This document shows, piece by piece, positions 12,655-37,122 of a DNA stretch of 37,122 nt; the stretch's first letter is position 1, and each line of letters begins with the position of its first letter. Position numbers and translations under genes: made by a program. The stretch is from a virus. Under the pieces are notes generated by a model. That model did not search any database and had not been told where the DNA came from. It saw nothing but the letters and a program-made list of their open reading frames with translations. The stretch covers positions 1 to 37,122 of IMG/VR virus record IMGVR_UViG_3300047172_000295; one strand, given 5' to 3'.

Positions 12655-12909
12655 GTGAAGAACGATTCTAAAACCAAAATGACCGCCGGTGGGGTGGGGC
12701 CTGTAACCCCGAACCTAGGAGCCTCACCGGCGGCAACCGTTGTGGATGGCGATTTCACGCTGACGATTGATTTCCTCACGCGCCGGGTGCGCACGTTGAT
12801 CCGCAAGGTCGGTTCGCAGCCAGCGACCGAGGCACAGCAGCGCGAGGGCAAGGAATTGTGGGGCCGGCTGGAGGCGTTGAAACGCGAAAGCGCAAAATAC
12901 CACGGATGA
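12655..12909 (+). CDS. Small basic protein before lipase (84 aa)
   Basis: The gene gives 84 residues from GTG 12655, or 76 from ATG 12679. A Gly/Pro-rich start is followed by FTLTIDFLTRRVRTLIRKVG and a Lys/Glu-rich helix. The stop overlaps the lipase start (ATGA), so they are coupled. A stable hairpin at 12683-12733 covers the early codons. No signal peptide, no membrane helix and no known family. Confidence 0.6.
   Translation: MKNDSKTKMTAGGVGPVTPNLGASPAATVVDGDFTLTIDFLTRRVRTLIRKVGSQPATEAQQREGKELWGRLEALKRESAKYHG
12683..12733 (+). other. Hairpin over the early codons of the gene before lipase
   Basis: CCGCCGGTG (12683-12691) and CACCGGCGG (12725-12733) form a perfect 9-bp stem; inside it GGGG and CCCC can pair again around cctgtaa. 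It sits a few codons after the likely start and may limit translation of the lipase operon, or just reflect Gly/Pro codons. Confidence 0.45.
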
Positions 12910-13703
12910 AACCAGACCTGAAAAATTTTAACTGGCCGCTCGCGCGCAAGCTCGCTGATTTTTCAGCGCGGGCGTATCGCGAGGCCACCGCCACGGACAA
13001 GGCCACTGACGCATCGGCGCTGGTGGCCGTGGACGGCGGCAATGTGGTGGTGGCGTTCAAGGGCAGTTCCACGCCGGAAGATTTTTTGCAGGACGCAAAA
13101 TTTCTGCGCCGCAAAATCTGCTGGTGGGATGAAGGCAAGTCAGTCGAGGCGCACGCCGGTTTCCTTGAAGATTTTAACGCGCTAAACATTGCGGTCTTTA
13201 GCCAGGTGAAAACATGGCTGGCGAGTTTGTCGGCCGGCGGCAATGTGTCGCCGAAGATTTATATCACCGGCCATTCGCTCGGCGGCGGGATCGCGATTCT
13301 GTGCGCGTTGGAATTTGCACGCATGAATCTGCGCGTGGCGGCGGTGATCACGTTCGGCCAGCCGCGCGTCGGCAACGCTGATTTCAAAAGCATCTACAAC
13401 CGCGAGCCGGTGTTGGGTCTAGTTGATGATCGCCGGTTGGGTGACATCACCTATCACGTCATCAACGCCGATGATCCGGTGCCGCTGTTGCCGCCGCTGC
13501 TCGCCGGCTATCGCGACGAAGGGAATGAAATTTTCCTGCCACCAAAATCCGCGCCGGTGCTGAATCCAGCCATCGGTTTCCAACTGATCAGTGATTTGCT
13601 CGGCGCGCTGGATGCGTGGCGGAAACGCCAGCTCGCGTTCGTGCCGCACCATTTCATCAAGGCGTATCTGGAAAGGATCCAACTCCATGACCGCCGTGAT
13701 TGA
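12906..13703 (+). CDS. Class 3 lipase
   Basis: The 265-residue protein is an alpha/beta-hydrolase of the fungal-type lipase (class 3) family. It has GHSLGGG with the nucleophile Ser124, then FGQPRVGN, the acidic residue in INADDPVP (Asp189/190) and a late His in VPHHF (248/249), in the family order. VVVAFKGS (about 48-54) is the typical strand before the oxyanion loop. There is no signal peptide, so it would stay in the cytoplasm until a holin or membrane rupture lets it act on membrane lipids. It starts as ATGA over the previous gene. No known endolysin is visible in this window, so the lipase may be part of the lysis set. Confidence 0.88.
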   Translation: MKPDLKNFNWPLARKLADFSARAYREATATDKATDASALVAVDGGNVVVAFKGSSTPEDFLQDAKFLRRKICWWDEGKSVEAHAGFLEDFNALNIAVFSQVKTWLASLSAGGNVSPKIYITGHSLGGGIAILCALEFARMNLRVAAVITFGQPRVGNADFKSIYNREPVLGLVDDRRLGDITYHVINADDPVPLLPPLLAGYRDEGNEIFLPPKSAPVLNPAIGFQLISDLLGALDAWRKRQLAFVPHHFIKAYLERIQLHDRRD

Positions 13704-20533: not shown

Positions 20534-22036
20534 ATGAATCCGAAATACAAACATCTGCGAAAAATCGCGTGGCCCGTCCTGGCACTCGCCGCGCTCCCGT
20601 TGATCATGCTCATCGCCGTCATGGCGCTGGCCTTGTCCATCCCCGTCGCCAAGGGCATGACGTGCGCGATCGCGCCGCTGGTCATTCCCAAAGGCAAGGC
20701 ACTCTCCGACGAAGAGTTTCAGGCCACTCTTTTCACCGGCGTCAACTCGCTGATCGAAGAGCAGGGACAGTTCAGATCCGCCCAGCAGAAAATCCTCGAC
20801 GATCTCGGCCGCGCCGACAAGGAAGTGAAATCCGCGCTGGAAGATTTGACGAAGGTCAAAAACCAGACCAACACCACGCACGAGCAGTTCACCAAGGCGA
20901 TGGAAAAGGTGCAGCGCCAGATCGCGCTGAACGCCAAGTCCAGCTTCCGCTCGCCGGTGCAGCGCGCGCTGGCGAATGAAGAAGTGCGGTTCGCACTGAA
21001 TGCGATGGCGCGGTGCGTGCTCGGCCAGCACAAGGATTCGCCGAAGGTGGATCCCGCGTTCGTGAAATATGTGGACGAACAAAACGCCAAGGCGAAGGCG
21101 CTCACCGGCGTGGACGCCGGCCTGGGTCAGGCCACGGTGCCCACGGAAACTTTCAATGAGATTTATGATCTCTTGTTGGAATATGGTGATTACACCACGC
21201 TCGGCGTGCATCGCGTTGGCGCGCGTTTGAACGTGCTGCCCGTCGCCACCGCGCGTCCGCAGTTCTACTGGATCGGTTCGCAGTCCACCTTGGCGGAAGG
21301 TTCCACCATCACCAGCGGCGTCTTCGCCGGCGGTCAGGTGCTCAACGTCATCAACACCTGCGCGGTGCTGATGTATGTCGCCCGCGAACTGCTCCAGGAT
21401 TCCACGGTGGATCTCGCGCCGTATGTCTTGCACCAGATGATCGAGTCAGCTAACTGGGGCTTGGACACCGCCGCCTTCATCGGCACCGGCAACCAGGACA
21501 CCACCAACGCCGGCTACGTCGGCATCTTCAACGCCGCGCTCGCCAACACCAACCAGGCTTACACGGCCGGTGCGGGCCGCACGCAGGTCAGCAAGCTCAC
21601 CCTCGATGACTTCGTGAATACTATGCTCACGGTCTCGGCGCAGGTCTTGAACCGCAAACCAATGTGGTGGGCGCACACGCAGAACATCGCGCGCGCCGCG
21701 CTCATCCGTGATAACAACGGCCGCCCGATCTTCCAGACGTGGCAGGAAGTGCCCAACCCCGGCACCATCGGTTCCATCCTCGGCCATCCCGTGCATCCCA
21801 CGGCCATCGCGCCCAGCGTGGACGGTCCCAACACCACGCCGTTTGTGTTCGGCGATCCGCAAGGCCAGGACGTGGCCATCCGCGAAGACCTGGAACTCGC
21901 GACCAGCGATGACATCGGCTTTCCGCAGAACCTGCGCGCCTTCCGCGCGCTGGTCCGTGGCGGCGTGAAGATAAAGACGCTGCCGGCCAGCACCACGCTC
22001 AAACCCTTCGCCGTGCTGAACACGGCGGCGGTATAA
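20534..22036 (+). CDS. Major capsid protein with N-terminal membrane segment
   Basis: The 500-residue protein is of the HK97 capsid family: a helical delta-like domain (about 55-135), then the fold with the PxFYWIGSQS strand, GNAxxGIFN-type segment (near 320) and the C-terminal FRALVRGGVKIKTLP strand. What is unusual is residues 11-38, a continuous hydrophobic helix after a basic N-terminus (KYKHLRK), which looks like a membrane anchor or uncleaved signal. The ATG at 20534 has no SD site but an A-rich leader (AAACACCGTTATG). A hairpin follows the stop. The delta domain with the membrane part would be removed by the neighbouring protease. Confidence 0.9.
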   Translation: MNPKYKHLRKIAWPVLALAALPLIMLIAVMALALSIPVAKGMTCAIAPLVIPKGKALSDEEFQATLFTGVNSLIEEQGQFRSAQQKILDDLGRADKEVKSALEDLTKVKNQTNTTHEQFTKAMEKVQRQIALNAKSSFRSPVQRALANEEVRFALNAMARCVLGQHKDSPKVDPAFVKYVDEQNAKAKALTGVDAGLGQATVPTETFNEIYDLLLEYGDYTTLGVHRVGARLNVLPVATARPQFYWIGSQSTLAEGSTITSGVFAGGQVLNVINTCAVLMYVARELLQDSTVDLAPYVLHQMIESANWGLDTAAFIGTGNQDTTNAGYVGIFNAALANTNQAYTAGAGRTQVSKLTLDDFVNTMLTVSAQVLNRKPMWWAHTQNIARAALIRDNNGRPIFQTWQEVPNPGTIGSILGHPVHPTAIAPSVDGPNTTPFVFGDPQGQDVAIREDLELATSDDIGFPQNLRAFRALVRGGVKIKTLPASTTLKPFAVLNTAAV

Positions 22037-22106: not shown

Positions 22107-22976
22107 ATGAGAACTGAAAATGAAATCAAAGCGCTGCCCCTCGAAGAGAAACAAAAACTCGTCGTCGAACTGCGCGCCGTGAAAACCGGCGACAAGGCTT
22201 ACGCCAACGCGAAGGCCATCATCGAACTCATCACCGCGAGCAAGGGCTGGAAAGAGCCGGCGCTCGTCGAGGTGACGAACATCGCCGATCACGACGTGCC
22301 GGTGGACGGCGCGGTCATCGCCAAAGGCGCCACGGGAAAAGTTTTCCCCTGGCAGTTGAGCGCATTGCCGCGTTTCCTTGAACCGGTCGCGAAGGCGGCG
22401 GCGCTGCTGCTGTTCTGCCTGTTGTTCGGCCTGGGCATCCCGGCCTCCGCGCAGGTGCAAAACTACGTCACGGGTTCCGCTGGCACCTACAACGTGGTGA
22501 ACATCGCCGGACTCAATGGCGGCACAAACAACATCATCGGCACGAACAGCACGTTCGCGACGCCGACGTATACCACTAACTATGTGGTCGCCCCTAATTG
22601 GGTGGTGAGCAACGGCGTCACGACGGTGACGTTTACGACCAACGTGCAGAGCGTGGCCACGAACACGCCCGGCGTTGTCAGCCTGGTCAACTCGGATTCG
22701 GCGGACATCTTCTGGGGTTTTCAACTCACTGGCGCTGGCACTGGCACTGCCACCGCGACGTATGACTACTCCGACGATCTGGTGAACTGGCGGCTGGCTG
22801 CCATCACGGCCACGCTGGCTGCGAATGGCACGACGTTCGTCGGCACCAACATCAGCCTGTCGCTCTTCACGCCGGGCTACATCCGGTTGAATACGATCAG
22901 CTATCCCAGCGTGACCGCCATTCAAACCAACGTGGTGCAAGAACTGGCGAAGAAGCCCGGTCGCACCGGCCCGTAA
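22107..22976 (+). CDS. Head protein with internal signal-like segment and secreted-type domain
   Basis: The 289-residue protein has two parts. Residues 1-94 look cytoplasmic: a helical start (EIKALPLEEKQKLVVELR) and a strand domain (VEVTNIADHDVPVDGAVIAKG) like small head proteins in this place of Mu-like modules. Residues 95-112 are a hydrophobic helix (KAAALLLFCLLFGLGIP), followed by ASA|Q at 113-116. The rest is Asn/Thr-rich and strand-forming. A signal peptidase site inside a chain is unusual for a virion protein. The leader is A/T-rich with no SD. Confidence 0.7.
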   Translation: MRTENEIKALPLEEKQKLVVELRAVKTGDKAYANAKAIIELITASKGWKEPALVEVTNIADHDVPVDGAVIAKGATGKVFPWQLSALPRFLEPVAKAAALLLFCLLFGLGIPASAQVQNYVTGSAGTYNVVNIAGLNGGTNNIIGTNSTFATPTYTTNYVVAPNWVVSNGVTTVTFTTNVQSVATNTPGVVSLVNSDSADIFWGFQLTGAGTGTATATYDYSDDLVNWRLAAITATLAANGTTFVGTNISLSLFTPGYIRLNTISYPSVTAIQTNVVQELAKKPGRTGP

Positions 22977-22995
22977 TTAAGCCACCGATAATCGT

Positions 22996-23145
22996 ATGTT
23001 AAACCAGCCGCCACGAGACCGGATGATCCGACCGAACAACCGCGAGGTTGTGACCAAGCCGGTGCCGCGTCCCGTGGCGGCCTTTAATGCCGACCCGAAG
23101 CCGTGCCTCATCACCAAACCCTCGCCACCGCCGCTTAAAAAATGA
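22996..23145 (+). CDS. Pro-rich microgene (49 aa)
   Basis: ATG 22996 opens 49 codons that end as ATGA over the next gene. The product is Pro/Arg-rich with no fold seen (MLNQPPRDRMIRPNN at the start). The coupling supports it. It may be a short linker-type head protein; function unknown. Confidence 0.6.
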   Translation: MLNQPPRDRMIRPNNREVVTKPVPRPVAAFNADPKPCLITKPSPPPLKK

Positions 23146-23816
23146 ACGCCGGATTTTCCAATCTCGACTATCTGAAGAAGCAACTGCTCGCGCCGGCATT
23201 GCGCGCGACCCTGACGTATGATGACCAGCTCGTGGCGCTCGGCCTCGGCGTGGTGGGAATGTTCGAGCGTTTTTGCAATCGCGATTTCACTTACGCAGCC
23301 GGCGTGCAGGAGATCACGCAGGGCGACCGCTCATTTTGGTTCACGCGCCGCACGCCCGTCACCCAGTTCACGAATGTTGAACTCCGATTTTTTACCGCCG
23401 ACACCTGGACCAGCATCATGGGCCAGCCGCTCGCAAGTGATGAAGAAAAAGGTTTGATCCATTTTGGTTACACGCTCGGCCGCGCGCCCATGCAGGTGCG
23501 CATCACTTACAATGGCGGTTACATCTGGGAGCAGCTTGAACCCAGCGACCCCGGCTTTCCCTCGCTGATTCCATCTGACATCACCAACAACGCCGCCGGG
23601 CTGAATCCGCTCAAATTTAATTTACCCGCAGAATTGCTCTATGCCTGGGTGCTTCAATGCAAACACATCTGGCAGACCATTGATCCGCGTGGCGTCAAGA
23701 TTGTCGGCGAAGGCGATAAGAACCGCGTCGTGCCGCAGCAGGTGTTCGGCGACATGGACATGATCCCGCAGGTGCTGGGCATCTTGAAACCGTTCATCCG
23801 TTATCAGATCACATGA
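23142..23816 (+). CDS. Head-tail connector (gp6-like)
   Basis: The 224-residue protein starts with the helices that are typical of HK97 gp6-type connectors (LKKQLLAPALRAT, then LVALGLGVVGMFERFCNRDF) and continues with strands and a Tyr/Trp-rich middle. The connector family forms the ring below the portal. The start overlaps the previous stop, and the stop overlaps the next start. Assignment rests on place and on the helical start. Confidence 0.72.
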   Translation: MNAGFSNLDYLKKQLLAPALRATLTYDDQLVALGLGVVGMFERFCNRDFTYAAGVQEITQGDRSFWFTRRTPVTQFTNVELRFFTADTWTSIMGQPLASDEEKGLIHFGYTLGRAPMQVRITYNGGYIWEQLEPSDPGFPSLIPSDITNNAAGLNPLKFNLPAELLYAWVLQCKHIWQTIDPRGVKIVGEGDKNRVVPQQVFGDMDMIPQVLGILKPFIRYQIT

Positions 23817-24382
23817 GCCAGGCCTTCAACATCGAGATCAACGGCGACTTGTTGGACGCGATCCCGCGCATCAAGGATCAGGCCGGCTTTGCCCGCGCCT
23901 GCGCGCGCACGATGGATTTTCAAAATCAACTCACGGTCGCACAGATCCAGGCGCAGCATCTTTCCGGGCCGACGACGGATTCCAGTTTGAGCGTGCGCAC
24001 GAACCGGCTGCGCGGTTCGGTGAACGCGAGCAAAGCCATCATCCTCGGCACCGGCGTGGCCAGCACCATCGGCAGCAATGTGGTCTATGCGCCGATCCAC
24101 GAATTCGGCGGCGTCATCCAGCGCACGGTCAAGGCCGGCTCGGTGAAGCTGCGCACGAACAAGCGTGGCGAGATTTTGCGCGGCGGCAAAAACGGTCAGC
24201 TCGCGATCTTCGCCGGCCGCCACCACAAGTTGTTCAAGGAAGTGAAATTCGCGGGCGGCAAAAGTTACACCATCACCATCCCGGCGCGCGCGCCCTTCGG
24301 CCACGGCATCGCCGACCGCCAGCCGGAATACACCGCCGCATTTGAAGCGGTCACGAAAGATTTTCTGGAGGGTAAAAACTGA
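23813..24382 (+). CDS. Tail-completion / virion morphogenesis protein
   Basis: The 189-residue protein has the APIHEFGGVI motif (about 97-106) and IPARAPFGHGIA near residue 160, which are features of the phage virion morphogenesis family (Mu gpG, P2 gpS; PF05069 and HK97 gp10-like). Such proteins end the neck and join head and tail. Coupled at both ends. It is slightly longer than usual because of a basic insert, about 110-145. Confidence 0.78.
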   Translation: MSQAFNIEINGDLLDAIPRIKDQAGFARACARTMDFQNQLTVAQIQAQHLSGPTTDSSLSVRTNRLRGSVNASKAIILGTGVASTIGSNVVYAPIHEFGGVIQRTVKAGSVKLRTNKRGEILRGGKNGQLAIFAGRHHKLFKEVKFAGGKSYTITIPARAPFGHGIADRQPEYTAAFEAVTKDFLEGKN

Positions 24383-25137
24383 TGAGCGACACCCTCACAG
24401 ATTTCAAGCAGCTCCAGCGCGACGCCTCGTTCGCCTATTCCAGCGACAGCCGGTTGCAGACGGTGAACATCATCACGCGCGAACAATTGCTCGCGGACAA
24501 ATCGCGGCTGCCGGACGAAACGCTTTCCATCGAGGTGCTCGGCTATATCACGCCGCGCAACGGCAAGCAGGGCGTGTGCGTCATCGTCGAGAAGCCGCGC
24601 TTCGAGGTTTTGAATCCGCAGGCACCGGGGCCGCAGGGCGACATCATCATTGAGTCGCTCATCCTGGAAGACCAGCTCACGAACATGGATCCCACGGAAG
24701 GCACCGGCCTCGCTGCTGATTACATCGCGCAAGTCTGTCTGGAGATCGGCCACGGCTGGAATCTGAATTTTCAATCCGACTTCGTGGCGGATCGCAACGC
24801 GATGGTGGAAGCCAAGGAATGGCAGCCGTTGCGCGCCTACAAGGTGCAGCATCGCATGGTGCTGTCGCGCGCACAGACCACGCGCGTGACCACGCCGACG
24901 CTCACGCAGGATTCGCCGAACCCCGGCATGATCACGCTGACCAACGATCCGAACACGCCGGACGCGCAAATTTATTACACCACGGACGGCGACACGCCCG
25001 CGCCCGATCAGGCGAATGCCACGCTTTACGAGGGCGCGTTCGTCGCGCCGGCCGGCAGTTATCTTTTGCGCTGGGCGGCGTTCAAGCCCGGCTACCTGCT
25101 CTCCGCCATCGCCCAAGTCAACATCAACAACCAATAA
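24382..25137 (+). CDS. Tail terminator-like protein with chitobiase-type C-terminal domain
   Basis: The 251-residue protein has an N-terminal neck or tail part (about 1-165) and a separate C-terminal domain (about 172-250). The C-terminal domain has IYYTTDGDTPAP, then LYEGAFVAPAGSYLLRWAAFKPGYLLS, which matches the pattern of the CHB_HEX_C_1 family (chitobiase/hexosaminidase C-terminal). Such domains occur in secreted bacterial enzymes and may decorate the neck. The start codon overlaps the previous stop by one base. The N-terminal assignment rests on position. Confidence 0.65.
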   Translation: MSDTLTDFKQLQRDASFAYSSDSRLQTVNIITREQLLADKSRLPDETLSIEVLGYITPRNGKQGVCVIVEKPRFEVLNPQAPGPQGDIIIESLILEDQLTNMDPTEGTGLAADYIAQVCLEIGHGWNLNFQSDFVADRNAMVEAKEWQPLRAYKVQHRMVLSRAQTTRVTTPTLTQDSPNPGMITLTNDPNTPDAQIYYTTDGDTPAPDQANATLYEGAFVAPAGSYLLRWAAFKPGYLLSAIAQVNINNQ

Positions 25138-25149
25138 CCAAACACCATT

Positions 25150-26097
25150 ATGAGTCTATCCATCTCCCGCGCGAACCTGCCCGGTGCCGGCGCGCCCAAA
25201 ATCACTTACGCCGGCGCGACCCTCTGGACGCGCGCCGACCTGATGATCCCGCTGAAGCAGACGCTCAAGCAACAGGTCAGCTCGATGTATGGCCCCGTCA
25301 CCTGGACGCGTGACGGCCGCAGCATCGAGTTCGAGATCCCGATCTACGGCTTCTGGAATTCGCTCGGCGTGCTGTTTCCTTCTTACTTGCTCGCCGGCAT
25401 CCACGGCGCGCGCATCTTCGGCACGACCGACACGCCGATGACGATTGTCGCGCGCAACGGCGATCAGATCGTTTTGAACAACGTCCAGCTCGTCGCCGTC
25501 ACCAACCTCAAGCTCAAGGCTAACGAACAGATTTTTTCCGGCAACGCCAAGTTCGTCGCGCTCATCGGCAACAACCTTTCGCCGGCCAGCGCGAACAGTT
25601 ATTACACCATCTCCACCGGTGTGGCGTATGCCGAGGGCAATTTTCCGCAGAACAATTTCAAGTCGCTCGCATGGACGGGCGCGTGGGGATCGCGCGCCGG
25701 CTTCACCAACATCCTCACGCAGGACGGCTGGGATGTGGACTGGCAGATCAAGTTCATGTCGCCCGACGATCTCGTGGACGGCATTGGCCCGGTGGATAAA
25801 TTTTTCGATTCCTGTATGCCGAAGATTTCCGCCATCGTCGTCGGCCCCACGCTGCCGCAGATGGACACCAACGTGGATTTCCAGGGCGCGAACGCGGCGG
25901 TGGGCGCGGACATCGCCGCCGACTCCGCGCCGCTGGTCCTCACGGACGGCACCAGCACCATCACGCTGGCCGTGGCGTCCATGATCGAAACCGGCGTGGT
26001 CTTCGCCCCTGGCAAAAAACGCATCGCCAAGACGACGTGGCAGGGAACGCTTTCATTCTCCGGCGGCGCGCCAAACGCGGTCGCCAGCGTCTCGTGA
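25150..26097 (+). CDS. Probable major tail tube protein
   Basis: The 315-residue protein stands after the neck genes, where the tube protein is expected. It is strand-rich with a Gly/Trp segment (GAWGSRAGFTN), and a C-terminal Ig-like pattern (TSTITLAVASMIETG). The ATG has an A-rich leader (AAACACCATTATG) like that of the capsid gene, so high expression is plausible. No sheath gene follows, so a non-contractile tail is likely. Recognition is by position and composition, not by motif. Confidence 0.6.
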   Translation: MSLSISRANLPGAGAPKITYAGATLWTRADLMIPLKQTLKQQVSSMYGPVTWTRDGRSIEFEIPIYGFWNSLGVLFPSYLLAGIHGARIFGTTDTPMTIVARNGDQIVLNNVQLVAVTNLKLKANEQIFSGNAKFVALIGNNLSPASANSYYTISTGVAYAEGNFPQNNFKSLAWTGAWGSRAGFTNILTQDGWDVDWQIKFMSPDDLVDGIGPVDKFFDSCMPKISAIVVGPTLPQMDTNVDFQGANAAVGADIAADSAPLVLTDGTSTITLAVASMIETGVVFAPGKKRIAKTTWQGTLSFSGGAPNAVASVS

Positions 26098-26136
26098 TTT
26101 CGTAGTCAACCATTAACCATCAACCAAAAATAAAAC

Positions 26137-26814
26137 ATGAAAACCAGCATCCTCCTCATCTCTGACGCCGCGCCCGGCTTGCCGCCGGTGGCCAAACCCG
26201 CGACCACGCCGCTGGCCGCAACACCTCCGCCCGCGCCGGTGCTTACCTGCGATCCCGCGCAGATCGCCGCCAACCTCCAGACCGACATCGCCGCTCTGGA
26301 AAAAGACGCGGCGCAATTGCCACCGCTCCTGGGCTTCGCGCTCAACTCGCTGCGCGGCGCGTTGTCGTCCGTCAACGGCCATCTCGCGGCTGTGAAAAAA
26401 GCCGCCGCGCTGCTGCTGCTGCTCACGCTGCTCACCCCGACCTCACACGCGCAGTTTTTTAATGGCGGTGTCACCGTCACCGGCACCAGCAACCAGCCGG
26501 TGCTGGTGAGCTTTGTCCCGATCACCAACACGGCGTCGTCCTCGCTCATCTCGCGGACGGCACAGATCCAGAACCTCGTGAGCAATGAGACTTTCGTGCT
26601 CCAATACGGCTATCAATGGGCCGGCTTGGGCGGCACCAACCTTTACATCGTGAACACGCTGGTGACCAACTTCAACGGCGCGGGCCTGACCAATGGCAGC
26701 ACCGTGCTCGTGCCGGTGCCATCAGTGTTTAACACCGTGCCCATCCAGCCCTGGGGACAGGCCATCTGCACGAACAACGCTGGCAACGTCACCAACGTCA
26801 TCAGCGTGCAGTAA
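26137..26814 (+). CDS. Tail protein with internal signal-like segment
   Basis: The 225-residue protein has a Pro/Ala-rich start, a helical segment (about 40-85), then KKAAALLLLLTLLTPTSHA|Q (about 87-106), then an Asn/Thr/Val-rich strand domain. The membrane part resembles that of the 289-residue protein encoded after the capsid, with the same KAAALLL start. Place between tube and tape measure is usual for tail-assembly chaperones; I see no chaperone motif. The internal cleavage site suggests export of the C-terminal half. Leader A-rich, no SD. Confidence 0.6.
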   Translation: MKTSILLISDAAPGLPPVAKPATTPLAATPPPAPVLTCDPAQIAANLQTDIAALEKDAAQLPPLLGFALNSLRGALSSVNGHLAAVKKAAALLLLLTLLTPTSHAQFFNGGVTVTGTSNQPVLVSFVPITNTASSSLISRTAQIQNLVSNETFVLQYGYQWAGLGGTNLYIVNTLVTNFNGAGLTNGSTVLVPVPSVFNTVPIQPWGQAICTNNAGNVTNVISVQ

Positions 26815-27207
26815 ATGAATCTGATCTGGACAGCCACCGGCGGCGCACCCGTCACGCTCGGCGATGATTCGGTCAAGCAGACCATCACCGTCGAGCAGCT
26901 TGACGCCCCGGCGGTCGTCCAGAAGCTGCTGTTTTTTCGGGGCGTTAACGCCCAGTTAGTGGCCCGTGGCGGCGACGAAGGCGTCTTCGTCGCCGTCGTG
27001 CAGCCGCCGCTCGCCACGTCAGACCAGGCGTCCACTTACATTAAAAACGAACTGGCCCGGAAAGGTCAGGCCGGCACGCTCGCGTGGGGACGCGTGGGCA
27101 CCATCTTTAATTTCACTGGCGTGGTCATCCGCCGCGTGACCGTCGCCGAGCTGAACGGCGCGCGGTTGCGGATCCGTTACACGTTCGGCTTTGCCGCCAT
27201 GGCTTGA
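26815..27207 (+). CDS. Tail-associated protein (130 aa)
   Basis: The 130-residue protein follows directly after the previous stop. It has strands and two helices (QTITVEQLDAPAVVQ; YIKNELARKG) and ends in RLRIRYTFGFAAMA. Place suggests a tail component. A perfect 14-bp palindrome (GGGCGTTAACGCCC at 26940-26953) lies inside it. Family unknown. Confidence 0.6.
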   Translation: MNLIWTATGGAPVTLGDDSVKQTITVEQLDAPAVVQKLLFFRGVNAQLVARGGDEGVFVAVVQPPLATSDQASTYIKNELARKGQAGTLAWGRVGTIFNFTGVVIRRVTVAELNGARLRIRYTFGFAAMA

Positions 27208-27209
27208 TT

Positions 27210-28376
27210 ATGAAACTAAAAAAAAATCTGTTCGTGCTTATTAAATCGCTCTTTGCCTTCATCGCGCTCGGCGCGTTCACGGTCGGTTGCACCTTCGCCG
27301 CCGCGCTGCTGCTGCGTTGCTGCACCCTGGCGTGGCGCGCGGGCTGGAAATTATTTCTCGTGCTGATGATTGGCGCGCTGGCCGCGTCGGCGCAGGCGAC
27401 GCCCGTGCTGTTCAGCAGCGCGTCGTTTGGCCTCGGCGTCAGCAATGTCCGCATCCTCGTCACCGCCGACCAGACGCCTTACCCGCCGATCGCCGGCACG
27501 AACAACCTGACGCGGCTGCAATTTTATTTGCAACCGGTGAATGGCCAGGTCATCACCAACCTAGTGCCGTGGGGTTACACTTATCAATACGAAGGCTGGC
27601 CGCGCAGCGTGCATATCGTGGTGCCCAACACGACGAACATTGTCAGCGCCGCGTCACTCGTCAACACCAACGCCTACTCGCCGGTGGTGCTTTATTCCGG
27701 CACCACCTTCCCGCTCACCGTCAGCAACACGACCTGGTATTTCGATGCGCTCGGCGGCTACCGGTTCACCAACAATGTGACGGGCGCAAACGGGTTTCTC
27801 GGCTTCGACGGCCACTTCAGTTTCACTGATCAAAGCAACAACGTCGTGACGTTCACCACGAGCGGTTTTTCTTGGAATGGAAATTATTTGCGCGCGCCGG
27901 TTGGTTTTACCGGCACGTTCACCAATGTCGCGCCGAACACGACCAATGTTCTGACCACCACAAATTATTCCTGCAAAATTACCGGGACGAACGGCTCATT
28001 CACTTACGGCGTCGGGCCGAGCATCACAGTGCGTTCAAATTATATTGTCAGTGGCAGCAGCATCGCGGATGGCAATTATGCCTGGAACGGCAGCTACTGG
28101 ATCATCGCGGGCAGTCCCTTCAATCCGGCGCTGAATCAAAACGGCACAAGCTGGCAAATCACCGGCACCGCCGGCTCGCCGGTTTGCACATCTTCGCTTG
28201 GCACATTTACCGCGCCGCCCGATTCGCCGCAACCGTGGACAGGATCGGGCTGGACGGGCGGCGGCGGTGTTTTGCCGTTCACGATTTCCAGCTACACCTA
28301 CACGACGAACGTCCTCGCGCACATCAACACCACCACGTTCACCAACGGCGTTTGCACCACCAACATTTTCCAATGA
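27210..28376 (+). CDS. Large protein with two N-terminal membrane helices and signal-type site
   Basis: The 388-residue protein starts with a hydrophobic Cys-containing stretch (about 8-40), then a second hydrophobic helix (about 47-60) that ends in ASA|Q (59-62). The mature part is Asn/Thr-rich and strand-forming. The last part (about 252-360) is a domain that is nearly repeated in the next gene. ATG 27210 was preferred to TTG 27204, which lies in the previous stop. It may sit in the envelope or be exported. The family is not recognised. Confidence 0.6.
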   Translation: MKLKKNLFVLIKSLFAFIALGAFTVGCTFAAALLLRCCTLAWRAGWKLFLVLMIGALAASAQATPVLFSSASFGLGVSNVRILVTADQTPYPPIAGTNNLTRLQFYLQPVNGQVITNLVPWGYTYQYEGWPRSVHIVVPNTTNIVSAASLVNTNAYSPVVLYSGTTFPLTVSNTTWYFDALGGYRFTNNVTGANGFLGFDGHFSFTDQSNNVVTFTTSGFSWNGNYLRAPVGFTGTFTNVAPNTTNVLTTTNYSCKITGTNGSFTYGVGPSITVRSNYIVSGSSIADGNYAWNGSYWIIAGSPFNPALNQNGTSWQITGTAGSPVCTSSLGTFTAPPDSPQPWTGSGWTGGGGVLPFTISSYTYTTNVLAHINTTTFTNGVCTTNIFQ

Positions 28377-28762
28377 AAAATTTTCTTTTAACTTTTTGCC
28401 TGCTCGCAACCGTGGCCACCAGCCGCGCTCAAACCAATTATGCCTGCACCATCACCGGCAGCGGCGGCACGTTCACTTACGGCGTCGGGCCGAGCATCAC
28501 GGTGTCGTCGAATTATGTTGTCAGCGGCAGCGGCATTGCCGATGGCAATTATGCTTGGAACGGTAGCTACTGGATCATCGCCGGCAGTCCTTACAATCCG
28601 CAACTGAATCAAAATGGAACCAGTTGGACGCTCACCGGCACCAATGGCACGCCAGTTTGCACCAGCTCACTCGGCACATTCACCGCGCCGCCCGATTCGC
28701 CGCAAGTGTGGACAGGATCGGGCTGGACGGGCGGTGGCGGAGTATTGCCCTGGACGGTGATT
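27963..28762 (+). repeat. Duplicated domain, two copies of about 325 bp
   Basis: The block 27963-28289 (C-terminal domain of the 388-residue protein) and the block 28436-28762 (whole mature domain start of the next protein) are close copies. At protein level about 84% of 108 positions match by eye, including WNGSYWIIAGSP and SLGTFTAPPDSPQ. The DNA differs mainly at third codon positions, so the copies have been kept under selection after duplication. Confidence 0.8.
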
Positions 28763-28909
28763 CGCAGCGTCGGTGTGGACGTGGTGACGTTCACCAGCAC
28801 GAATGCCACGACCGGCTGGCAACCGGTGGCCACGAATCATTTTTCGATTCCCGGCACGCAGCCGCAGCAATTTTTCCGCGCCGTCCTAACCATCACGCCA
28901 CCGCAATGA
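28373..28909 (+). CDS. Secreted protein, paralog of the preceding C-terminal domain
   Basis: The 178-residue protein begins with an ordinary Sec signal peptide (MKNFLLTFCLLATVATSRA|Q). The next 108 residues copy the C-terminal domain of the gene before it. A second strand part (about 130-178) ends in PQQFFRAVLTITPPQ, an ending pattern seen in Verrucomicrobiota secreted proteins, from memory. Start and stop are coupled to the neighbours by ATGA. It is probably exported rather than in the virion. Confidence 0.7.
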   Translation: MKNFLLTFCLLATVATSRAQTNYACTITGSGGTFTYGVGPSITVSSNYVVSGSGIADGNYAWNGSYWIIAGSPYNPQLNQNGTSWTLTGTNGTPVCTSSLGTFTAPPDSPQVWTGSGWTGGGGVLPWTVIRSVGVDVVTFTSTNATTGWQPVATNHFSIPGTQPQQFFRAVLTITPPQ

Positions 28910-35432: not shown

Positions 35433-35713
35433 AGATTGAACTCGCCGAGCTGATGAAAAACCATTGCGCCTGGCACAAGATGCTGGTCGCCGGAAAGCTC
35501 GTGAATGGGTCAATCGTGATTGATGACGAAACCGGCCAAAAAATCATTGATGAGTGCGCGCGCGTTCGTGGCCTCGGCGACATCATCCACACCGTCGCCG
35601 ATCCCATCGCGCGCGTGATTGATTTTGCGTTCGGAACCGATCTGAAGAATTGCAATTCCTGCGCCGAGCGGCGCGACCACCTCAACGCCCAATACCCCAT
35701 TAAAAAAATATGA
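35429..35713 (+). CDS. Small cytoplasmic protein near the distal end (94 aa)
   Basis: The 94-residue protein starts as ATGA over the previous stop and ends as ATGA over the next start. It is helical and acidic/basic mixed, with CARVRGLGDIIHTV and a CNSCAERR pair near 76-79, which may bind metal. Unknown; it may be a chaperone for the large fibre protein, by place. Confidence 0.6.
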   Translation: MKIELAELMKNHCAWHKMLVAGKLVNGSIVIDDETGQKIIDECARVRGLGDIIHTVADPIARVIDFAFGTDLKNCNSCAERRDHLNAQYPIKKI

Positions 35714-37122
35714 AAACTCTGAACCTCATCCTGCTCGCCGTCGTCGCGTTCGCGCTCACCGCGACCGCGCAGATCACCAACGTCACCACGTCCACGCCGA
35801 CGCTCACCAACACCACCACGAGCAGCGGCTGGATCACGATTCCTGGCGTCGGCACGAACATGGCTTACAGCGTGACGTTCTCGAACAATGTCGTCTATGG
35901 CGATCTGTTGCCCATCGCCTTTGGTAAAGTGAACGCCAATTTTAGTTTCGTCGAATCGCAGATCACATCCGCGCAGACCAATCCGCCGGTGTTCACGGCC
36001 GCCGCCACGGCCAGCACCAATCCGCCCAGCGTCACGCTCACCGGCGTCACGAACGGCGTCGCTTATTACATCGTCACCATTCCCGCCGGCAGCACCGGCG
36101 CGACCGGTGCCACGGGTGCGCCCGGCACGAATTATGTGACGATGACACTTTTGACGAATTGCGTTTTCACTTCCACGGAATCCACGCTCACAAACGTCAA
36201 TCCGCTCACCTGCAACGGCTCGAATTACATCGGGTATTTCTCGCAGCTCTACGACTTCGCATTGGTCACGCCGAACACCTCGGTCGGCATGACGCTGGCC
36301 ACCAACCTGAATGAGAATCTTTACGCGAGCTACGACAACACGAATTGGTTTCAAGTGACCAACTCGCCATGCGTGCTGACGAACCCGGTTTATGTCACCG
36401 TGGCGGGCGACAACAACACCAATTACAGCGGCAGCCTGACGCTCTATTCCGTGGATCACCCGGAGCTTTACGGCCGCACGAACAATTTCGCCGGCCAGCG
36501 GATGCAATTTGCCGATCCGATCCTGCCGCTGGACGCGGTGAATTTGGAGACGGCGCAATACCTCATCGCCAACGCCGTTGGCTCGATCTGGTCAACGTCC
36601 GTGGACACGAATGGCACCGTGCATTACAGCTACGCACCGCAGGGTCAATTGAACTTCGATCTGACCGCGAACAAGACAACGTATTCGCCCTTCGTGCAGA
36701 TTCTAAATTCGGGGACAAATTGGGTGCTGGGCGTGACCAATTTGAACGTGGGCTATCAGATGCAATTCAGCACGAATCTGACCTACACTTACGGCTGGAC
36801 GACCTTCACCGGCTACACCTCGACCACGAACATTTACAACGCCACGAACGTGGTGACTTTCACCGTGCCGAAATACCTGCTGAACTCGGCTCCTTACGCC
36901 TTCTTCCGCTGCGTGACATTCAGCGTGGCCACCGCCAGCGTGACGCCGCCCTTTAAGACGCTCAATGGCCTCATCAGCCCGTCGAACTCCTGGGCAACGG
37001 TCTATGCCACCGTGACGAACCAGCTCGCGCCCGGCGCATTCGCCAATTTCGTGAACAGCAACGGCGTGGGGGAATACAAGATATGGAACAATGCCGGCAC
37101 CTTCGTGGTCACGCCGCAGTAG
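35710..37122 (+). CDS. Secreted Asn/Thr-rich protein with short collagen-like tract
   Basis: The 470-residue protein begins with a Sec signal peptide (MKTLNLILLAVVAFALTATA|Q). The mature part is Thr/Asn/Val-rich strands; at about residue 127-141 there are five Gly-x-y triplets (GSTGATGATGAPGTN). The C-terminal part has aromatic strands. The stop is the last codon of the window. It could be a surface adhesin of the lysogen or a fibre that is exported before assembly. No homolog is recognised. Confidence 0.65.
   Translation: MKTLNLILLAVVAFALTATAQITNVTTSTPTLTNTTTSSGWITIPGVGTNMAYSVTFSNNVVYGDLLPIAFGKVNANFSFVESQITSAQTNPPVFTAAATASTNPPSVTLTGVTNGVAYYIVTIPAGSTGATGATGAPGTNYVTMTLLTNCVFTSTESTLTNVNPLTCNGSNYIGYFSQLYDFALVTPNTSVGMTLATNLNENLYASYDNTNWFQVTNSPCVLTNPVYVTVAGDNNTNYSGSLTLYSVDHPELYGRTNNFAGQRMQFADPILPLDAVNLETAQYLIANAVGSIWSTSVDTNGTVHYSYAPQGQLNFDLTANKTTYSPFVQILNSGTNWVLGVTNLNVGYQMQFSTNLTYTYGWTTFTGYTSTTNIYNATNVVTFTVPKYLLNSAPYAFFRCVTFSVATASVTPPFKTLNGLISPSNSWATVYATVTNQLAPGAFANFVNSNGVGEYKIWNNAGTFVVTPQ

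Follow-up and report, generated by a model that had tools for sequence, protein, structure and literature searches.

The window analysed here is the whole of IMG/VR virus record IMGVR_UViG_3300047172_000295, a stretch of 37,122 bases, and this account concerns two of its late genes, g22107 and g26137, whose products carry a hydrophobic helix resembling a signal peptide in the interior of the chain. In g22107, residues 1–96 are followed by VAKAAALLLFCLLFGLGIPASA/Q (the slash marks a putative cleavage site, here and below), which places the site after residue 115, whilst in g26137 residues 1–86 are followed by KKAAALLLLLTLLTPTSHA/Q, with the putative site after residue 105. The two genes and the capsid gene ahead of g22107 are laid out as follows (L and G numbers are our labels for the loci and genomes compared).

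20534..22036, plus strand: HK97-type major capsid protein (PF05065, E=3e-25; phrog_10, E=2.9e-27)
22107..22388, plus strand: g22107 front domain, residues 1–94, three helices and a small beta part, with an autonomous predicted fold
22395..22451, plus strand: g22107 internal signal-peptide-like helix and site ASA/Q, residues 97–115, kept in all fused relatives
22452..22973, plus strand: g22107 back half, presumed exported, a predicted beta-sandwich of jelly-roll type (AlphaFold2 (AF2), Foldseek and VIA) with stand-alone secreted homologues
26137..26394, plus strand: g26137 front part, residues 1–86, with leader MKTSILLISDAAPG, which is common to capsid proteins; full-length homologue at L029:15490-16140
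26395..26451, plus strand: g26137 internal signal-peptide-like helix and site SHA/Q; same layout in L029 (PARA/Q)
26452..26811, plus strand: g26137 back half, presumed exported; homologue in L006 (blastp E=6e-10)

The first-pass annotation of this DNA had assigned one layout, an N-terminal part, an internal helix with a signal-peptidase-like site and a strand-rich Asn/Thr domain, to three genes. The layout stands for g22107 (96 residues before the helix) and g26137 (86 residues) and suits g27210 less well, as only ~47 residues precede its helix, as part of a hydrophobic leader. Both back halves are rich in Asn and Thr, and that of g22107, which ends in the basic tail KKPGRTGP, is also predicted to be strand-rich. 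A helix start KAAALLL, said to be common to two of the genes, did not hold up: g22107 relatives read KVAALIA, KSAALWL or KAAAMLL and the L029 homologue of g26137 reads KGLSALLVLL, so that the motif, conserved within neither family, looks like a matter of composition and not of descent.

Conservation of the two-part layout

Relatives of the window phage were established via the capsid protein, whose gene is present in 14 viral contigs, and via whole-genome profile searches; scans of the viral contigs with g22107, g26137, g27210 and a stand-alone protein from G421 gave no matches, and the aligned back halves vary too much to serve as a query. Close capsid relatives (L027, L028 and L029) come from assemblies of Verrucomicrobiota, of which two carry the name subdivision 3, and by this kinship the window phage belongs to the phages of Verrucomicrobiota subdivision 3. 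L029 is part of an 80-kb contig on which host genes, lpxC/fabZ and pntA amongst them, are found close to it, and therefore L029 at least is an integrated prophage of a lipopolysaccharide-bearing bacterium.

Wherever the viral contigs allow the gene that follows the capsid to be read, it is a g22107 homologue with the same plan: a folded domain of ~94 residues, a spacer of 0–60 residues, a signal-peptide-like helix, a small-x-Ala site and a beta-sandwich. With the set enlarged by L026, L027–L029 and the distant prophages L045 (G336) and L046 (G448), both of which sit on deep branches of the capsid tree, the plan is found in 16 distinct sequences (window included, near-identical contig sets counted once). 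The first-pass annotation had suggested looking for the two-part layout in homologues, and it is indeed kept, in these 16 sequences for g22107 and in L029 for g26137.

Across 14 aligned sequences the front domain is 52–80% identical to that of the window. The internal helix is merely 33–60% identical, with a core that is uncharged throughout and Ala at −1 throughout. All 15 scored members of the g22107 family reach at least 6 on a simple signal-peptide score, which 38 of 1500 shuffled copies do, and when neutral drift is simulated to the observed helix identities each member would pass just 2–21% of the time, although the product of these probabilities is not a p-value as the sequences share ancestry and are not independent. 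The family has the features expected of Sec substrates, namely a positive n-region, an uncharged hydrophobic core of ~10–15 residues and small residues at −3/−1, with the putative site after residue 111–174 and N-terminal only in stand-alone homologues. Lipoprotein sorting by signal peptidase II was rejected, as Q, T, A or F, never Cys, follows the site in all aligned members. Pfam and PHROG searches with g22107, its relatives and g26137 returned nothing significant, and a PDB sequence search with the g22107 family profile returned nothing below E=0.18.

The stretch from front domain to site comes in at least ten lengths, the shortest 21 and the longest 83 residues, yet the frame is kept and is never broken by a stop. 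Moreover, L006 and L027 contain no ATG, GTG or TTG between the conserved W82 of the front domain and the helix. Together, the start-free interval and the in-frame variable spacers indicate that the g22107 halves are translated as a single chain. A separately started second half would leave the frame free, so that its retention counts against one, and the missing start codons in L006 and L027 rule out an internal start as a general explanation.

The strongest evidence on the nature of the helix comes from prophages in which the back half is a separate gene. In G421, G426 and G619 it stands alone and opens with an N-terminal signal peptide of the ordinary kind (MKRILLLSLALSALLLMSARA/Q is one example); the profile matches have E between 5e-6 and 2e-9. 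When the fused and stand-alone proteins are aligned together, the internal helix lies over these N-terminal signal peptides, which strongly suggests that it is a signal peptide itself, and the basic C-terminal tail is common to both forms. In G421 and G426 the ATG of the back half overlaps the stop of a 70-residue gene by 4 nucleotides, an arrangement characteristic of translational coupling. Amongst 313 host-order and 388 phylum genomes searched, the back half occurs almost exclusively in such prophages, the sole other match (G763, E=4e-5) being a fragment within a very long frame. The stand-alone genes sit right behind capsid genes of other families, phrog_247 in G426 and phrog_283 in G619, and the G421 capsid, seen in two frames, is an evident homologue of the phrog_247 protein. 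That the gene lies beside the capsid gene in phages whose capsids belong to different families suggests that its task is connected with the head or with the level at which the head is expressed. The predicted fold is of the common jelly-roll type; the best VIA match is XepA, an exported protein of PBSX (Z 9.2), tied with CBM16, TNF-like and birnavirus VP2 folds, and therefore no function is drawn from it.

The front half also occurs alone. In L050 (G549) it is a complete gene of 95 residues, 42% identical (hhalign E=5e-26), that stops exactly where the helix starts in the fused proteins. AF2 modelling of the front domain alone gave a predicted local distance difference test (pLDDT) score of 91.6 and a predicted template modelling (pTM) score of 0.74; a Foldseek search with this model found no PDB match at E ≤ 0.001. 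In L047 (G543) the post-capsid gene encodes a protein of 76 residues resembling the beta part of the front domain, probably a stand-alone front half; the capsid proteins of L047 and of L046, which has the fused form, are sisters (support 100/99). A separate front half is securely identified by sequence in L050 only. Homologues lacking the helix, which the first-pass annotation had regarded as telling against cleavage, thus occur twice (L047 and L050), and in both the whole second half is absent, which points to modularity and not against the scheme.

For g26137, L029:15490-16140 shares the leader, front part, helix, site and back half, whilst the L006 homologue consists of the back half alone behind a plain N-terminal signal peptide, MKTKTKHLAALILTVACGLWTLDCHA/Q. 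The window protein passes the simple signal-peptide score. Homology of its front part to the small genes that occupy the corresponding position in L005, L028, L046 and L014 could not be demonstrated. Its leader resembles the N-termini of those capsid proteins that have no hydrophobic stretch (L009, L015, L026, L029 and L047), as well as the N-terminus of the L047 front-domain protein. A loose version of the leader pattern is found in 9 of the clade's 3,793 Met-started frames, all of the capsid, front-domain or g26137 kinds, and in 0 of 1,496 frames in Mu, lambda, D3112 and HK97, although the pattern was written after the sequences had been seen and the counts are descriptive. The MKKILLIADSAAG-type leader occurs on two genes within one phage in L029 (9950 and 15490) and L047 (minus strand, 3808 and 5182), and in the window at 26137. 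A leader common to the capsid and other late proteins may be a prohead targeting or maturation signal.

The window capsid protein itself has a hydrophobic N-terminal stretch (residues ~12–40; 20534-20660), for example PVLALAALPLIMLIAVMALALSIP. Such a stretch, 25–40 residues long, is also found in L002, L003, L005, L006, L008, L014, L027, L028 and L046, and is alike in L014 and L046 despite their distant capsid proteins; the capsid proteins of other relatives have a short MKxILLIxDxAAG leader instead. The hydrophobic N-terminus could possibly reflect membrane-associated head assembly.

Predicted export and competing explanations

Taken together, these observations are best explained if g22107 and, independently, g26137 encode two-part precursors, in which a front protein of the head module is joined to a second protein that is exported by Sec via an internal signal peptide, a reading to which we give a probability of about 0.62. 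Export by Sec followed by a signal peptidase cut at the internal signal peptide is the most likely predicted course. The proposal that host signal peptidase can cut one such chain, made earlier for all three genes, is well supported for g22107 and g26137 by the kept layout, the helix alignment, the kept site and the frame; it is not supported for g27210.

The ribosome would make one chain, as read from the DNA, of which the front domain would fold in the cytoplasm, in keeping with its autonomous predicted fold and its free-standing form. The internal signal peptide would then insert and the beta-sandwich would be translocated, as the homology to stand-alone secreted versions suggests, and host signal peptidase I would cleave after the small-x-Ala site, consistent with the conservation of that site and the short hydrophobic core. 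The front part would remain inside, where the used signal peptide would serve it as a membrane tail, and would join head assembly, whilst the beta-sandwich would work in the periplasm or on the cell surface, perhaps as a receptor- or glycan-binding head or as a subunit that joins virions at lysis. That the front part of g22107 stays with the virion is suggested by its capsid-gene neighbourhood and by the free form in L050, a reduced element that keeps the capsid; for the inner part of g26137 the leader in common with capsid proteins points the same way.

Several points weigh against this reading. The signal peptides were called with a home-made score, and the front domain has no recognised relative in the family and fold searches. 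L047 and L050 have no second half, which is therefore not needed for the task of the front part, and what ties the L047 protein to the front domain is the place of its gene together with likeness in short motifs (hhalign E=0.0055, probability 3%). A second start is also possible in some members, with an ATG just before the g22107 helix in L002 and L010 and an in-frame GTG at 26392 just ahead of the helix of g26137.

Of the competing explanations, the one that survives best, though still unlikely, is that the chain stays uncut and the helix anchors it as a type II (signal-anchor) protein, its front domain on the inner side and its beta-sandwich on the outer, so that heads or assembly sites are tethered to the inner membrane. 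Such a tether would require the in-frame translation as one chain that is observed, and would suit the hydrophobic N-terminus on many capsid proteins of the clade. However, the core of ~10–15 residues is short, Ala at −1 and a small or neutral residue at −3 are kept in every scored member despite the drift of the helix, neither of which an anchor needs, and the stand-alone versions have ordinary signal peptides.

It is improbable that the exported protein arises from a start near the helix, as a nested gene with two products. Translation from the GTG at 26392, or from the pre-helix ATG in L002 and L010, would indeed yield perfect ordinary signal peptides, and in G421 and G426 the back half does have a gene to itself, whose start overlaps the small gene's stop; against this stand the interval without start codons in L006 and L027 and the spacers of at least ten lengths, all in frame, which nested or separate genes would not need. 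There is even less to recommend a virion protein that is never exported, in which the helix is a buried hydrophobic stalk in head or tail and its likeness to a signal peptide incidental. Capsid genes of several families have this gene as their neighbour, and jelly-roll folds are frequent in virion decorations and fibres, but the −3/−1 site is kept, and plain N-terminal signal peptides are present on the stand-alone homologues as well as on most of the clade's fibre-like late proteins, which is not so in the control phages. A recent or neutral fusion through a lost stop codon, with no functional meaning, is barely credible for g22107, since the fusion is kept in 16 distinct sequences across deep capsid divergence, even though such fusions recur in the clade (g26137, L006:12324-12995 and L014:15468-17996); for g26137 and these single cases it may still apply.

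The two-part precursor could be part of a wider scheme in which the lineage assembles its particles using the two sides of the membrane: fibres and head subunits of beta-sandwich type would be exported by Sec, fold in the oxidising periplasm and join the DNA-filled heads and the tails at lysis, with the front halves marking the docking sites. This extension is speculative and decidedly unlikely; if true, it would mean a tailed phage with a pre-exported outer coat.

Comparison with known systems

Internal-signal precursors that supply both sides of a membrane are common in animal viruses. In flavivirus C-prM and togavirus capsid-E2, a cytoplasmic domain on the capsid side is followed by an internal signal peptide that is cut by host signal peptidase, with the next protein across the membrane. 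The proteins described here resemble these polyproteins in combining a structural domain, its role suggested by gene position, and a presumably exported domain in one open reading frame with an internal signal peptide between them. In contrast to those enveloped, budding viruses, the window belongs to a tailed DNA phage with no envelope and a bacterial host with Sec and LepB, and the cleavage is a predicted one.

Amongst phages, Mu gp35 and HI1506 have the same gene position as g22107, directly after the major capsid gene; the g22107 front domain has no convincing PDB fold match. Membership of the FluMu_N family (PF17891) was rejected, as none of the 8 genomes or records compared gave a match above the cut-off and the best one in the window is off target (12.6 bits, other strand). 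Lambda Lom, spanins, signal-anchor-release (SAR) endolysins and superinfection-exclusion lipoproteins are phage genes that use host Sec, as proposed here, but they are lysis or conversion genes with no fused cytoplasmic structural domain.

The usual view of tailed phages is that their virion proteins are synthesised and put together in the cytoplasm. In the clade studied here, Sec signals are predicted on genes adjoining the capsid gene and on most fibre-like genes, one of them behind a cytoplasmic head-module domain via an internal signal peptide. Either the phage would deliver proteins to the cell surface in time with the making of its heads, or outer parts of the virion would pass through the periplasm. 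In this Verrucomicrobia phage family one gene probably provides a protein for each side of the host membrane, and annotation by N-terminal signal peptide alone overlooks such exported proteins. The open-access literature searched held no tailed-phage precedent for an internal-signal-peptide fusion. Target proteins of phage diversity-generating retroelements (DGRs) are without signal peptides (PMC6199706), and two Bacteroides phages have one or two signal peptides per genome (PMC5723332). The NtraC model of long, two-domain signal peptides is described (PMC2447879) for vertebrate precursors whose signal peptides are 40 residues or longer. The phage proteins are like those signal peptides in having a long N-region ahead of the hydrophobic core, possibly with its own task, and unlike them in that the N-region is predicted to be a complete folded domain that is also found as a separate gene.

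Fibre-like proteins and other features of the window

The remaining features that bear on export are listed below, with two small elements that flank g22107.

27210..27392, plus strand: g27210 leader with hydrophobic segment, R-GW motif, signal-peptide-like helix and site ASA/Q; same in L027 and L029
27393..28373, plus strand: predicted exported fibre-like part of g27210, with a C-terminal domain of ~110 residues that is repeated in g28373
28373..28909, plus strand: g28373, predicted exported protein with an ordinary signal peptide, a copy of the g27210 C-terminal domain with the same Cys pair
35710..37122, plus strand: fibre-like protein with ordinary signal peptide MKTLNLILLAVVAFALTATA/Q, reaching the record end; counterpart in L047
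22048..22076, plus strand: strong RNA hairpin between capsid gene and g22107 (minimum free energy −25.5 kcal/mol)
22996..23145, plus strand: small conserved gene (MLNQPPRDRM...), which in L006 continues in frame into a different signal-peptide protein

The ~47 residues ahead of the g27210 helix are themselves hydrophobic (8–36), and this region is therefore a double-hydrophobic leader and not a folded front part. The same leader is found in L027 and L029, whilst L006 has a plain signal peptide. By its sequence, g27210 is an ordinary exported fibre-like protein whose leader has gained an extra hydrophobic segment. Its C-terminal domain (27960-28300) is repeated as the body of g28373 (28440-28770), with a conserved Cys pair ~70 residues apart that would fit folding in an oxidising compartment.

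Signal peptides are common on the fibre-like late proteins of the clade, with examples at 28373 and 35710 in the window and counterparts in L005, L006, L009, L028, L046 and L047. The same detector found none on the fibre genes, or on the genes next to the capsid, in Mu, lambda, D3112 and HK97, and made a clear signal-peptide call on lambda lom, which encodes a known outer-membrane protein. Other in-frame fusions of a small front part to a signal-peptide protein are present in L006 (12324-12995) and L014 (15468-17996). The latter, 842 residues long, has a 74-residue front part with a repeated VMPKDVPL(E/D)QQK motif, followed by a signal-peptide-like helix and a long Asn/Thr-rich part of exported type.

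Hairpins with other sequences lie at the same capsid/g22107 junction in many relatives (for example L002, L003, L006, L008 and L027–L029), and L005, L014 and L015 have no hairpin there.

As a whole, the window is of siphophage type and probably Mu-like. Its left arm is on the minus strand and resembles the early region of Mu-like phages, with a large protein taken by eye as a candidate MuA-like transposase and a sub-threshold match to Gam. On the right arm are the genes for portal, head protease, HK97-type capsid, connector and tail. Ahead of the structural genes lies a class 3 lipase gene (12906-13703; PF01764, E=2e-25), predicted as possibly a lysis or membrane-damaging enzyme, and frames with an HSLGGG motif resembling it are found in L009 and L027.

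L050 (G549:C75), L051 (G552:C37) and L052 (G477:C40) resemble reduced Mu-like phages with a capsid. All three have transposition-type genes and few further recognised tail genes; L050 and L051 have a tape-measure-like protein, and in L050 the capsid is fused to the protease. By their gene content these elements could be satellites or domesticated particles.

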